The position numbers and the translations under genes were made by a program. From positions 1 through 42,330 of the forward strand of contig NZ_FQTP01000002.1 in assembly GCF_900128515.1 (NCBI RefSeq): a stretch of 42,330 nt of DNA, written 5' to 3'. Shown one piece after another: positions 3,879 through 38,262 of this stretch (positions are counted from its first letter, which is position 1; each line of letters begins with the position of its first letter). This DNA is from Bathymodiolus heckerae thiotrophic gill symbiont. Its GTDB lineage: Bacteria > Pseudomonadota > Gammaproteobacteria > PS1 > Pseudothioglobaceae. Below the pieces are notes generated by a model, which made no database searches, was not told the DNA's origin, and saw only the letters and a list, made by a program, of their open reading frames with translations.

Positions 3879-4118
3879 TTTTTTTAAAGCTGGATTCGCA
3901 ACTATCACGAATTTTGAGATAGAGCTATATGGCTCTGTTTAATACTTCAGGTTTACTAAATCTCATCTAGTGGGAACTATATCAATATACCCAATATCAC
4001 GCTGTAATCAGAGTATAAATAGTATATTCGCACTGAAAATTATGATTTACGTATTAAATTGATACCAATATTCAGAATACAGTCATAGTAAATAGTTATG
4101 TTTCAAAAGGAGAGGCTA

Positions 4119-4850
4119 ATGCCAAAAGTTTTAAACTTGCAAGAGGCAAGAGAACAAAAAGAGCAGTGGAAAAATGTAGTTTTTGAAGAATTCTATACCA
4201 CAATGACAAATGAGAATGAAAAGTTCCCGTGTGTTTTTGGCACAGCAGGTGTCAAAAACCAGCAAGTAAGATATTATTTTTCAAATTCGCAAGCTAGAGA
4301 TCCAGATATTTACCCCTTAGCAATAGTCTTAGAAGAATATGTAAAAAATTCTAGAACATACGGGAAAAATACATCTCTGGTGGTGTTCTTTAAGCCAGAC
4401 TCGAAAATACGCTCAATACAAAATTATGAGCGAGATTTTTGGTCTATATTACAGAGATTAAACTATATTGATTCATCTAGTTGGCCAAAAGAGATTTCAG
4501 AAGATCCGGAGCATTACCTCTGGGAATTCTCATTCTCTGAAGAGCCTATTTTTGTTGTATGCAATAACCCAGCTCACAAGTTAAGACGAAGCAGATATGC
4601 AGGTACTTTTATGATTACGCTTCAACCGCGCTGGGTATTTGAATTCTTACAAAAACCAGCAGGGAGAAAATCTAAAAAAATAGTAAGAGAAATACTAAAA
4701 TCATATGATGATATTGATGTGCATCCAGAATTAGGAACTTATGGAGATAAAAAAAATAAAGAATGGTTACAATACTATCTTTCAGATACAAATGAAACAA
4801 ATAACAAAAAATGCCCATTTCAATTAAAAGAGAAGCAACATGATCGATAA
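4119..4850 (+). CDS. YqcI/YcgG family protein
   Basis: The 243-residue protein carries the whole family pattern in order: FPCVFGTAGVKNQQVRYYF near the N-terminus, W-x-LQRLNYID in the middle, then DPEHYLWEFSFSEEPIFVVC, NNPAHKLRRSRYAGTFMI and LQPRWVFEFL. The length fits the family. From memory, some relatives (DcsA-, AglA- or GntA-type proteins) are heme-dependent N-hydroxylases of arginine-like substrates in natural-product pathways, while most members have no assigned role. The reaction here is not known. Start: ATG 4119, seven bases after AAGGAGAG; an in-frame ATG at 4098 lacks this site. Its 3' end overlaps the cupin gene by 11 bases, so the two are probably translated together. The 240 bases before it hold no gene. 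Confidence 0.75.
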   Translation: MPKVLNLQEAREQKEQWKNVVFEEFYTTMTNENEKFPCVFGTAGVKNQQVRYYFSNSQARDPDIYPLAIVLEEYVKNSRTYGKNTSLVVFFKPDSKIRSIQNYERDFWSILQRLNYIDSSSWPKEISEDPEHYLWEFSFSEEPIFVVCNNPAHKLRRSRYAGTFMITLQPRWVFEFLQKPAGRKSKKIVREILKSYDDIDVHPELGTYGDKKNKEWLQYYLSDTNETNNKKCPFQLKEKQHDR

Positions 4851-28275: not shown

Positions 28276-29508
28276 TTATGGAACGTTGAGCACTGCGCAA
28301 TTGCACAAATCATCACTTTCAAAACTTGTTATATCGTCAGTATTTAAGCCTGGAACTGGAAAAACACGAACAGTGAGTGGCTTATTTAATCGAAATGCCA
28401 TTGTTCCTGTATCTCTCATAAGGGCAGATATCTTATCTATAGATGTATCGCCTGGAATCGGAACTGTATCTAAACCAATGCCACAAACAGAACTATAGGT
28501 TAACAAGGAGTGGATATCAAAATTTGAATCAATCGTACCTTGCGCCAAACCAACATCTTCCGTTAACGCTAGCATAAGTCCGGAAAATCCTACCAGATCC
28601 ACACCATTAACAGACTTAAATACTTTGGTTAACAAAGATGATGCCTCAACCGTTCCACTTGCACCAAAATACTCAACACCCATTTGCTCATAAACTTCAA
28701 CCATACTTGAACAATTTTTTGATGGTGCTGCGGAGCTATCAAAACCAGAAAATTTAAATGGTTTTTCAATGTTTGAATTGTCAATGATATTATCAATCAT
28801 AGAAATGTGATATTGTAACGCCTCACTCATAGCGTTGTAATAGCCTTCAAATAGCTTATTGTGATCTTTATCGTTTGTGGCACCATTAAATTCTTTTAAA
28901 ACACTAACAAGCAAATCTGGCGTTTCAAGGCCTATAACAAACCTATCACCCAACTCTCTCCTATGATAACTAGCGGGAAAATAAGGTATAAGCGGATCAC
29001 AATTAAAATTTACTGTAAAGTTAAAATTTCCCTCACCTCTTGGTGTAATGGTGCTAATCCTGCTAACTGCTTTTGCACAATGCTGGATTAAGTTATTGTC
29101 AAGAACCCCGAAATCATCAGTTCCTACATTAACGCATACATTGCATAAATCCCCGAACTCTTTAACCAGCTCTGGAAGGATTTCTATTTCTTCTTGGGTT
29201 TTTGCCTCTCCAATTGCAAATCTAATTCTAACTCCAGATGTATTAGCAGAATTTAACAACTCAGAAAGATAGGCCAAATCTATCTTTGCATTTTCCAAAC
29301 TGTCAGTATTTAAATACTCTCCAAATGGGTTTGTAACAATTCTGACTGATTGAACTGTGTAATTATTTTTTTGGAATTCTGTAGATAGATCAGCGCAAAA
29401 TTTTGATGCTTTTATTATTTCTTTATTCCACGTTTCTTTTCTATCATTCAATGACAAAAAAGTAGTTATTGTTCTTATCTTGCAAAGATCTTTATTCTTA
29501 TAGTTCAT
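28276..29508 (-). CDS. DUF711 family protein (UPF0210-like)
   Basis: The 410-residue protein has family marks: IRTITTFLSL at the N-terminus, NFNFTVNFNCDPLIPYFPAS in the middle, SVCGIGLDTVPIPGDTS and PLTVRVFPVPGLN near the end. The fold is related to glycyl-radical-like barrels but lacks the radical motif, and its function is unknown. It is a lone minus-strand gene between the toxin-antitoxin genes and a VapC remnant, with no obvious partner or strong ribosome site. Confidence 0.78.
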   Translation of the reverse strand: MNYKNKDLCKIRTITTFLSLNDRKETWNKEIIKASKFCADLSTEFQKNNYTVQSVRIVTNPFGEYLNTDSLENAKIDLAYLSELLNSANTSGVRIRFAIGEAKTQEEIEILPELVKEFGDLCNVCVNVGTDDFGVLDNNLIQHCAKAVSRISTITPRGEGNFNFTVNFNCDPLIPYFPASYHRRELGDRFVIGLETPDLLVSVLKEFNGATNDKDHNKLFEGYYNAMSEALQYHISMIDNIIDNSNIEKPFKFSGFDSSAAPSKNCSSMVEVYEQMGVEYFGASGTVEASSLLTKVFKSVNGVDLVGFSGLMLALTEDVGLAQGTIDSNFDIHSLLTYSSVCGIGLDTVPIPGDTSIDKISALMRDTGTMAFRLNKPLTVRVFPVPGLNTDDITSFESDDLCNCAVLNVP

Positions 29509-33697: not shown

Positions 33698-34126
33698 ATG
33701 GACATTCGTAAAGTAAAAAAATTAATGGAATTGCTAGAACAATCTGGCATGGCAGAAATTGAAATTGTCGAGGGTGAAGAATCAGTTCGTATCTCACGCT
33801 ATGGCAATGCGCCTATAGCTACAGCACCAGTAGCAATGGCAGCACCAGTAGCGGTTGTTGAGTCAGCAGTTGACACACCAGCAACTATCAATGGCCACCC
33901 AATCACTTCTCCAATGGTTGGTACTTTTTACGGCTCAGCTTCACCAACTTCTGGTGTATTTGTTTCAGTTGGTCAACATGTTAACCAAGGCGATACAATT
34001 TGTATCATTGAAGCGATGAAAATCATGAACCAAATTGAAGCGGATCAATCAGGCACTGTGACTGAAATCTTATGCAAAGACGGTGATGCTGTTGAATTTG
34101 GTCAAACACTTGTTATTATTCAATGA
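33698..34126 (+). CDS. accB: Biotin carboxyl carrier protein of acetyl-CoA carboxylase
   Basis: The 142-residue protein has the N-terminal helix ([16 protein letters not shown]), an Ala/Pro-rich linker (about residues 38-62) and the biotinyl domain with the biotin attachment Lys108 in [15 protein letters not shown]. It supplies carboxybiotin for malonyl-CoA synthesis. It overlaps accC by four bases (ATGA). Confidence 0.97.
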
Positions 34127-35481
34127 TCGCTTTAAATAAAATTCAAAAAGTTCTAATTGCCAATCGCGGTGAGATTGCACTTAGGATTTTAAGAGCTTGT
34201 AGAGAGCTTGGCATTAAAACGGTTGCTGTCTATTCAACAGCAGACAAAGATCTTAAACACGTACGACTTGCTGATGAGGCGGTTTGTATCGGCCCACCCC
34301 CTTCGGCTGATAGCTATTTAAACATTCCGGCATTGATTGCTGCAGCAGAAGTAACGCATGCAGATGCGATTCATCCAGGCTATGGGTTCTTATCAGAAAG
34401 CGCTGACTTCTCTCAACGCGTTGAAGAAAGTGGATTTATCTTTATTGGACCTCGTGCGGAAAATATCCGCGTGATGGGTGATAAGGTTGCGGCCATTGAA
34501 GCCATGCAAAAATCTGGCGTACCTTGTGTGCCTGGATCTGATGGCGCACTAGGCGAAAACCCAATTAAAAATATGGAAATCGCCCGCAACATTGGCTTAC
34601 CAGTTATTATTAAAGCTTCTGGTGGTGGTGGTGGACGTGGCATGCAAGTAGTAGAAAAAGAAGAGGACTTGCTTGCCTCAATTGAGCTTGCCAAAACTGA
34701 AGGATTAAGCTTTTTTGGCAATGCAGAAGTTTACATGGAGAAGTTTTTAACCACGCCTCGCCATGTTGAAATTCAAATTTTAGCTGACGAGCACGGCAAT
34801 GCTGTGCATCTTGGTGAGCGTGATTGCTCTATGCAGCGCCGCCATCAGAAAGTTGTCGAAGAGGCGCCAGCTCCTGGTATCAACCCCGAACTTCGTAACA
34901 AAATTGGTACAGTTTGCGCTGATGCTTGTAAAGCTATCAACTATCGCGGTGCAGGCACGTTTGAATTCTTGTTTGAAAATGATGAGTTTTATTTCATAGA
35001 AATGAATACGCGTGTGCAAGTTGAACACCCTGTTACTGAAATGATTACTGGTGTTGATATTGTCCGTGAGCAAATTTTAATTGCCGATGGTCAGCCACTA
35101 TCTTTTACTCAAGATGAAGTTGTCATTAAAGGCTATTCTATCGAGTGTCGTATTAACGCTGAAGATCCGAACAACTTTATGCCGTCTCCCGGCAAGATCA
35201 CTCAATACCATGTTGCTGGTGGATTAGGCGTTCGTGTTGATTCGCATGTTTACAACGGCTATACAGTGCCGCCTCATTACGATTCAATGATTGGTAAGCT
35301 AATTACCTATTCTGACACGCGTCTTGGTGCAATTATCAAAATGCAAACTGCACTCAGTGAAATGGTCATTGACGGTATTAAAACTAACATCCCCTTGCAA
35401 GCTCGCATCATGAAAGATAAGGTATTTCAAAAAGGTGGCATGAACATTCACTACCTTGAAAAAATGCTGGGAGAAAACTAA
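34123..35481 (+). CDS. accC: Biotin carboxylase subunit of acetyl-CoA carboxylase
   Basis: The 452-residue ATP-grasp enzyme carboxylates biotin. Key parts are the start [33 protein letters not shown], the Gly-rich loop [33 protein letters not shown] and [14 protein letters not shown]. The length is standard. Its stop is followed after a single base by the start of the unrelated ATPase gene, whose ribosome site GGGAG lies inside the accC end. Confidence 0.98.
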
Positions 35482-35482
35482 A

Positions 35483-36772
35483 ATGAATTTTAAACTGGAA
35501 GGCTTTAAACCCATTCAATCAGCGGAAATTGTAGTCAATGATTTAACTTTAATTTTTGGTGATAATAATAATGGAAAAACCTATTTTGCCTATGCTCTAT
35601 ATGGCTTGTTAAAAGCTTTTAAGTCTATTAATATTGAGATTTTAACAAAAAAAATGGAAAGTGATTTACTCGCTAATAATAAAATTACCATTAATAAAGC
35701 CAAATTGAATTTAGAAGATATTATCAAGAGCGTTGCTAAGAGCTATGCTAAAAAAATACATTCTTTTGTGTTTTCTAGTGAGAATCAAAATATACCCATA
35801 ATATCTTTATCAAATTTAAGCCTATCAACAGAAAAAACTAAACAGACTATCAACATAGGTGGTTCTAGTATTATTATTGACTCTAACAAAGAATGGTTTG
35901 AGATTACGATAAAAAATCAAGACACTGGTTTAAACAATATAATTATTTATGAAATTAACCAAGCACTACTAACATTATTATTTGACATTCCTGATGTATT
36001 TATTTCGGTTGCTGAAAGATTAGGAATTAGCCTGTTCCAAAAAGATTTAGATTTAAATATTAATACTTTAGTAGATCATATTAAAAAAAGCAAAGAAATA
36101 AATCCTTTTGACTTAATTCGTGATTACTCTTCCAGATATGCTTTACCTGTAAAAGACAATATTGATTTTATACGTGCTATTGAAACCATTCAAAAAGGCA
36201 AGACTACTTTAAAAATTGACCTGTCTACTCACATAAAAAAGATGATAGGCGGTAAGTTAAAATATAACGGTAATGAGGTGAGACTCTCTAACAATCGGCA
36301 TGGTGATAATAAAATAGATATCCCCATTTACTTAACATCTGCTTCAGTTCGCGCCTTATCCAGTTTGTATTTTTTCTTAAAGCACAAGGCGAAACCTGGA
36401 GATTTAATTATTATTGATGAGCCAGAAAGTCATTTAAGTTTAGCTAAACAAAGATTACTTGCAAAACTAATTGCAGATTGTATTAATAATGATTTAAAAA
36501 TAATGCTAACCACACATAGTGACACTTTAGTTCTGGAGTTAAATAACTTAATAATGCTCAATAGTGACTTTGACGATAAAGACAGTTTTATGAAAAAAAA
36601 TCACTACAAAAATAATAATATAATCAATCCTGATAAGGTTAGCGCCTATATTGCTGAGAATGGCGGCATGACTAAGTGTAATATTGACAAATACGGCATG
36701 GAAGTTGGTAGTATGGATAAAGAAATTAATAAATTAAACACAATTAGGGATGGCTTAGAGGCACGATTATGA
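35483..36772 (+). CDS. AAA-family ATPase, OLD-like without a TOPRIM domain
   Basis: The 429-residue protein has the Walker A GDNNNGKTY (residues 26-34), a degenerate signature region (TSASVRALSSLYFFLK), Walker B LIIIDEPESHL (Asp312, Glu313) and an H-loop TTHSDT (His345). This matches the AAA_15/AAA_21 SMC-like ATPases of OLD nucleases and many phage-defence systems (such as Septu PtuA or PARIS AriA). The protein ends soon after the H-loop and lacks the C-terminal TOPRIM nuclease of true OLD proteins. I chose ATG 35483, one base after the accC stop, over the in-frame start inside accC. It overlaps the next gene by four bases (ATGA). The insertion between accC and argC, and composition more AT-rich than its neighbours, suggest transfer. 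Confidence 0.72.
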   Translation: MNFKLEGFKPIQSAEIVVNDLTLIFGDNNNGKTYFAYALYGLLKAFKSINIEILTKKMESDLLANNKITINKAKLNLEDIIKSVAKSYAKKIHSFVFSSENQNIPIISLSNLSLSTEKTKQTINIGGSSIIIDSNKEWFEITIKNQDTGLNNIIIYEINQALLTLLFDIPDVFISVAERLGISLFQKDLDLNINTLVDHIKKSKEINPFDLIRDYSSRYALPVKDNIDFIRAIETIQKGKTTLKIDLSTHIKKMIGGKLKYNGNEVRLSNNRHGDNKIDIPIYLTSASVRALSSLYFFLKHKAKPGDLIIIDEPESHLSLAKQRLLAKLIADCINNDLKIMLTTHSDTLVLELNNLIMLNSDFDDKDSFMKKNHYKNNNIINPDKVSAYIAENGGMTKCNIDKYGMEVGSMDKEINKLNTIRDGLEARL

Positions 36773-37185
36773 TGTTTGACCATTTTTTTAAAACCCAAAC
36801 AAACTCAAAACAAGAAATAACATTACTTGGAAAGAAACAGCAGAAGCACGTAGTGCAACTAGAGGCTGATCAAACGATTGAGTATTTTGAATTAGACAAG
36901 ATTATTAAGCCTTGCAACAAAACAATTCAAAACCTAAAGGCTTGTGATTATGTCTTGGCTGATCATAGTAGAAAGAGGCTATTATTTTGTGAATTAAAAA
37001 ATTCTCAAGATAGAAAAGTAATTAAAGGGGCAGAAACGCAGCTAGATCATTCAAAACACATTATTAATTTGTTTTTAAATATTTTTGAAGAAGGTGAATA
37101 TTCATATGCTTTATTGGTGCTTCGTACAAAAAAGATGAGTAAAAGAACAACTAAAACTAGACGAATTCAACAAAAAAATATATAG
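36769..37185 (+). CDS. PD-(D/E)XK-like nuclease candidate paired with the ATPase, probably 3'-frameshifted
   Basis: The 138-residue protein carries Asp60 (CDYVLADHS), then Glu75-x-Lys77 in LLFCELKNS, and Gln91 (AETQLDH), a spacing like the D...ExK...Q pattern of PD-(D/E)XK nucleases. I do not recognise a named family. It overlaps the ATPase gene by four bases, so the pair is translationally coupled. At its end the frame stops at 37183-37185 just after an A7 run (37172-37178). One more A would extend it through [19 protein letters not shown] to TAA 37236-37238, into the start of argC. That continuation reads as protein, so the gene is either frameshifted, slippage-rescued or misassembled. Confidence 0.5.
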   Translation: MMFDHFFKTQTNSKQEITLLGKKQQKHVVQLEADQTIEYFELDKIIKPCNKTIQNLKACDYVLADHSRKRLLFCELKNSQDRKVIKGAETQLDHSKHIINLFLNIFEEGEYSYALLVLRTKKMSKRTTKTRRIQQKNI

Positions 37186-37224
37186 ATTCAAATAAAAAAG
37201 AGTTTCATTTTAACAAGTTAGTTT

Positions 37225-38262
37225 ATGCGCAAAATTAAAGCAGGAATTATTGGCGGCACCGGTTATACCGGGATCGAACTACTAAGACACCTTCACAACC
37301 ATAAAGGTGTAGAAGTGATTGCAATCAGCTCTCGCTCAGAAGCAGGACAGCTTGTTGGTGAATTCTTCCCTTCTTTAGCGGGACAAACAAAATTAGTTTT
37401 TACAGCGCCTGATGATGCAATCCTAGATGAATGCGACGTTATTTTCTTTGCAACACCACATGGTGTGGCCATGAAAACTGCCGGCAACTTTATCGATAAA
37501 GGCATCAAAGTAATTGACTTAGGGCCAGATTTCCGATTGCGTGACAAAGATGAATACGCCCAATGGTACGGCTTGGAAAATTTCCAAGATGAATTATTGG
37601 CGTCATCAGTGTACGGATTGTCTGAAATTAATCGTTCGCAAATTAGGAATGCTCAATTAATTGGTAATCCAGGTTGTTTTCCAACTACTGTTTTATTGGC
37701 GCTTAAACCTTTAATTGAAAAGAATTTAATCGACTTATCAAGCATTATTGTTGACTCTAAAACGGGTGTGAGCGGTGCAGGGCGTGGTGCAAACCAAGCA
37801 ATGCTACTATGTGAAACCAGCGAATCCGTTAAAGCATATGGCGTTAGTGGTCATCGTCACTATCCAGAGATTAAACAAGAGTTAAGCTTGTTAGCAGGTG
37901 GAAAATCTATTGGTCTAACCTTCATCCCGCACTTAGTACCAATGATTCGCGGCATGGAGTCCACAATTTATGTGGACTTATTAGAGTCTGACGTTGATGT
38001 ACAATTAATCTTTGAGAATGCTTACAAAGATGAGCATTTTGTTACCGTGCTTGGCGCGGGCACTGCGTGCGCAACGCGTAATGTCAAATCAAGTAACTTC
38101 TGCCAAATTGCTGCACAAAAAGCAGTTGGCGGTAAGTTGGTAATAACATCCGTCATTGATAATTTAGTCAAGGGCGCATCAGGCCAAGCTGTTCAAAATA
38201 TGAACATCATGTTTGGTCTAGACGAGAAGTCTGGACTATCATCTATTGGCTTGCTACCTTAA
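37225..38262 (+). CDS. argC: N-acetyl-gamma-glutamyl-phosphate reductase
   Basis: The enzyme performs the third step of arginine biosynthesis. The 345-residue protein begins [19 protein letters not shown] (NADP-binding) and has the active-site Cys151 in [18 protein letters not shown], followed by [12 protein letters not shown]. The family length is full. It is alone among arg genes here and precedes erpA by 13 bases. Confidence 0.96.

Follow-up and report, generated by a model that had tools for sequence, protein, structure and literature searches.

Between the essential genes accC and argC of a gammaproteobacterial symbiont we found two overlapping genes, here called A and B, that probably constitute a phage-defence pair. 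They lie in a window of 42,330 nt (contig NZ_FQTP01000002.1 of assembly GCF_900128515.1, Bathymodiolus heckerae thiotrophic gill symbiont, forward strand), which is the whole stretch of DNA analysed here. A preliminary description of this region did not recognise the pairing. Sequence comparison places it in the class combining an OLD-ABC ATPase with a PD-(D/E)XK nuclease (PD-T4-4, PDC-M47, WonAB), as a branch with a strongly diverged nuclease. The defensive role, already suggested there, is inferred from the match of A to the ATPase of PD-T4-4, the known members of the class and the patchy presence of the pair in related genomes.

The biotin carboxylase gene accC (34123..35481, + strand) ends with a TAA codon at 35479-35481, and the ATG codon of A follows at 35483, after a single base. 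Gene A (35483..36772, +) encodes an ATPase of the OLD/ABC type of 429 aa, and gene B (36769..37185, +) a small PD-(D/E)XK-like protein of 138 aa; the two overlap by four bases, B starting at 36769 and A ending at 36772. The 3' flank is formed by argC (37225..38262, +). These coordinates agree with the initial account of a two-gene insertion with a one-base gap and a four-base overlap. The sequence GGAGA within the end of accC (35470-35474) can serve as a ribosome site for A, as had been proposed. However, the end of the module had been set at 37238, beyond the stop codon of B at 37185; an out-of-frame continuation at 37176-37226 was apparently counted in.

The pair is surrounded by biosynthetic genes, and no defence island was observed in its neighbourhood. 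The G+C content of A and B is 0.29-0.30 versus 0.41-0.43 in accB, accC and argC. The Rfam search of the region yielded zero families. Scans of the region for promoter and terminator patterns gave results at about the chance level, and a promoter belonging to the pair is neither supported nor ruled out by them. With no clear promoter of its own, the pair is probably transcribed by read-through from the accC operon. Elsewhere in the window, there are a YqcI/YcgG family protein (4098-4850, 234 bits), a DUF711 protein on the minus strand (28276-29508, 302 bits), and a fragment at 1039-1431 that resembles an IS30-type transposase by eye and has no Pfam match at E 1e-5.

The assignment of A is clear. 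It matches the Pfam domains AAA_15 and AAA_21, and its best PADLOC match is PD-T4-4_A, covering the full length with 314 bits (E 5.8e-94). The second match is PDC-M47A (258 bits), and the PD-T4-4_A score is far above those of the remaining defence ATPase profiles; the AriA and GajA profiles match the ATPase part only, with at most 68 bits. The Walker A (GDNNNGKT, residues 26-33, 35558..35581, +), Walker B (LIIIDEP, residues 308-314, 36404..36424, +) and H-loop (TTHSD, residues 343-347, 36509..36523, +) motifs all fall in conserved columns. No TOPRIM domain was found in A or B by Pfam profile search, so that A is an OLD-type ATPase lacking TOPRIM, as previously described, and has the features expected of the ATPases of the class.

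The D...ExK...Q pattern noted earlier in B is formed by residues D60, E75, K77 and Q91, which delimit a putative active-site stretch (36946..37041, +). Taken by itself, this pattern is weak evidence, as the same spacing occurs by chance in 37% of shuffled B sequences; more telling is the register of these residues, which is maintained across relatives. A profile made from a small alignment of B relatives was compared with the alignments of PD-T4-4_B and PDC-M47B. It matched the former with a probability of 94% (E 1.5e-7, over 49 columns) and the latter with a probability of 90% (E 1.8e-6), and D60, ExK and Q were in register with both families, which are themselves related (97.6% in the profile-profile comparison). 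Thus a gene adjacent to A carries the PD-(D/E)XK motif in register with the known partners, as expected for this class, and the idea of a small PD-(D/E)XK-like partner gains support. In a direct profile search B matches neither PD-T4-4_B (at E<=1) nor PDC-M47B, and for this reason the pair is not filed under either system. Its best PADLOC match is PDC-M29B (26 bits, E 2e-6).

Structural predictions for B are of low confidence, with a mean AlphaFold2 pLDDT of 52 for the window protein and 50 for a longer relative. The models predict a helix, two strands (the second with ExK), two helices (the first with Q) and a final strand, an order that fits the PD-(D/E)XK fold. The top Foldseek matches include nicking enzymes, restriction enzymes and many other PD-(D/E)XK nucleases, none of them significant (best E 0.08); the VIA-align Z is at most 5, and sequence search gave no significant match to a protein of solved structure. 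A scan of the genome collection with the B alignment produced matches in two Bathymodiolus symbionts only, and no relatives of B were found on plasmids, phages or viral contigs. By prediction, B is likely a very divergent PD-(D/E)XK nuclease.

In a family that we take to be Thioglobaceae/SUP05, 63 accC-argC junctions were readable. The pair occupies five of these junctions, that of the window and those of G043, G047, G024 and G116, which belong to another genus. It is missing from 57 junctions: 56 are closed up, and G021 (L066) has a 278-base spacer with no similarity to A or B. All eight other readable junctions in the genus of the window are empty. The remaining junction, that of G022 (L071), contains a fossil: the sequence MKFKLENFKPIHSAEIKV, 18 codons from the start of A, continues in frame into argC, whose product seems to have acquired 18 N-terminal residues from the deleted gene. 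The occupied copies share details of the junction, namely two additional codons at the start of argC and the lack, at the end of accC, of the SH seen in most empty states. The presence of the pair is thus patchy, at a single shared site. The variable presence expected by the preliminary description was borne out by this comparison, and so fixation in all relatives as a housekeeping operon, the outcome named there as refuting, is contradicted. Occupied, decayed, fossil and empty states of one site can be compared here among closely related marine symbionts and their SUP05 relatives.

The two genes diverge unevenly. Divergence was estimated by the simple Nei-Gojobori method with synonymous sites near saturation, so that the following figures serve as contrasts only. 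Between the window and G043, residues 244-429 of A are 74% identical, the same as argC, whereas residues 46-165 (35618..35977, +) are 27% identical with dN 0.84, and B is 39% identical. Within the other genus, G043 and G047 are 82% identical in residues 244-429 of A and 83% in argC. On these comparisons the motor part of A appears to diverge at about the rate of argC, the insert 46-165 and B being hypervariable. Rapid change in the insert and the nuclease is what one would expect of a sensor and an effector, and its contrast with the slowly changing motor points to the insert as the possible location of phage sensing. The similarities of B run opposite to those of A: B from G047 and G116 is 39-46% identical to B of G043 and 53-58% identical to that of the window. 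Since A suggests the reverse, B may have been exchanged.

The parity of the A motor with argC fits long residence at the site with repeated loss. Alternatively, the pair may have come from unsampled lineages by transfer through the flanking core genes; recent import together with long flanks was rejected, as both flanking genes have the look of native genes of the window's genus almost up to the junction. We tentatively suggest, while considering it somewhat unlikely, that the pair is a promoterless defence cassette riding a biosynthetic operon. It would be a single old insertion between accC and argC, inherited or swapped between lineages through the flanking core genes. Its nuclease and sensor insert would be exchanged or evolve rapidly, and loss of the cassette could leave a part of the ATPase as a new N-terminus of argC. 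If so, the PDC-M47 pairs found between thrC and cysM in the same family would be a second case.

Not all copies of the pair are in good condition. Frame changes, internal stops or deletions affect four of the five, although several come from draft assemblies in which single frame errors are possible, window B included. The copy of G043 seems to be undamaged. In G047 the frame of A changes, in G116 both genes contain frame changes or stops, and in G024 most of A is missing and B is interrupted by a stop. The window has an intact A, and a stretch resembling the C-terminal end of longer B relatives follows in a different frame (17 residues, segment frame 3, 37176..37226, +). This continuation suggests that window B, which lacks about the last 20 residues present in relatives, was shortened by a frame change near its end, a detail that the preliminary description overlooked. 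Without this stretch the window copy may already be impaired.

It is quite possible, if on balance doubtful, that in the window genome the pair is a degenerating, functionless remnant of an ancestral defence pair, an explanation compatible with the proposed identity. The lesions, the shortened B and the fossil in G022 all speak for it. On the other hand, window A retains all ATPase motifs, D60, E75, K77 and Q91 are still present in B, the sequence of the lost tail differs between relatives, and the frame change in B may itself be an assembly error. A housekeeping role tied to accC and argC, for instance in DNA repair or in control of the operon, is far less probable. The exact fit into the operon, with overlapping starts and stops, and the argC-like rate of the A motor would agree with it, but the pair is absent from 57 of the 63 junctions, including all eight others in its own genus, and the existing copies decay. 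The empty junctions rule out a fixed part of a housekeeping operon, and the small number of occupied sites, the fossil, the low G+C content and the lesions argue against housekeeping in general.

The candidate mechanism of the defence pair follows the analogy with WonAB, the best studied system of the same build. A would dimerise via its ABC motifs, and its variable insert (residues 46-165), the proposed sensor, would recognise a phage-made signal. The ATP cycle would then license cleavage of nucleic acid by the B protein that A holds. If the analogy holds, the infected cell would be halted before phage assembly, perhaps at translation. A toxin-antitoxin or other selfish pair, where B is a toxic nuclease restrained by A and the genes are kept by addiction and not by phage defence, would have the same appearance of an overlapping gene duo with a small putative nuclease, and overproduced WonB is indeed toxic (PMC12137116). 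However, the toxicity of WonAB requires the ATPase, which is at odds with simple neutralisation, frequent loss and decay at the junction are a poor fit to addiction, and sensing would better explain why the ATPase is a large motor with a variable insert. We consider such a pair unlikely and retain phage defence as the preferred reading.

Several other defence systems with ATPases or nucleases were considered, of which Gabija, OLD, PARIS, Septu and Shedu were rejected. Gabija, OLD and PARIS require a TOPRIM nuclease in or beside the ATPase, and neither A nor B has a TOPRIM match. Septu requires the HNH partner PtuB, and no HNH match was found in B. For Shedu, the C-terminal domain of SduA (SduA_C) scores 16.4 bits in B, the cut-off being 27. 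PDC-M29, a phage-defence candidate of PADLOC, provides the top match of B, but A prefers PD-T4-4_A instead, and PDC-M29A is absent among the best 25 PADLOC matches listed for A. Searches of several hundred genomes with PDC-M29B and PD-T4-4_B gave no useful loci.

Other members of the class occur in the genomes considered here. One, in G085, is part of a BREX operon, where brxC and pglX flank it. In L080 and L081 the pair comes after a gene for a type III methylase, and in L081 a res gene comes next after the pair. These contexts speak for a role in defence. A 2026 survey (PMC12839542) described add-ons of BREX operons in which OLD-ABC ATPases are combined with nucleases of the PD-(D/E)XK and other types. 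The candidate system PDC-M47 of PADLOC also has members in a housekeeping operon: PDC-M47AB pairs were found between thrC and cysM in L029 (G022), L030 (G059) and L031 (G047), where B overlaps the start of cysM, and the two flanking genes are close together in several relatives. Spacers between thrC and cysM of about 310 bases in L118 (G051) and about 830 bases in L123 (G117) were also observed, several relatives being nearly closed. The A proteins of the thrC-cysM pairs are only about 30-34% identical to window A, and the B protein of G043 matches PDC-M47B with E 0.004 only.

PD-T4-4 was discovered in E. coli by selection with phages (Vassallo et al. 2022, PMC9519451). It shares with our pair the order of ATPase and nuclease genes, the A family and the D...ExK...Q register of the PD-(D/E)XK partner. 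However, the PD-T4-4_B profiles have about 190-206 positions versus 138 aa in window B, and PD-T4-4 resides in an ICE-like element of E. coli (PMC9519451), whereas the pair described here sits in a housekeeping operon. WonAB of V. cholerae WASA-1 was compared by build alone; it is likewise a two-gene operon of an OLD-ABC ATPase and a small PD-(D/E)xK nuclease, although borne by a prophage (PMC12137116). There, abortive infection was shown by experiment, both proteins and both active sites are required, the nuclease is toxic only together with the ATPase, and in aborted infection translation is halted with the DNA intact (PMC12137116). To this barely characterised class, in which an ATPase sensor is joined to a nuclease effector, the accC-argC pair adds a candidate branch whose nuclease has strongly diverged.
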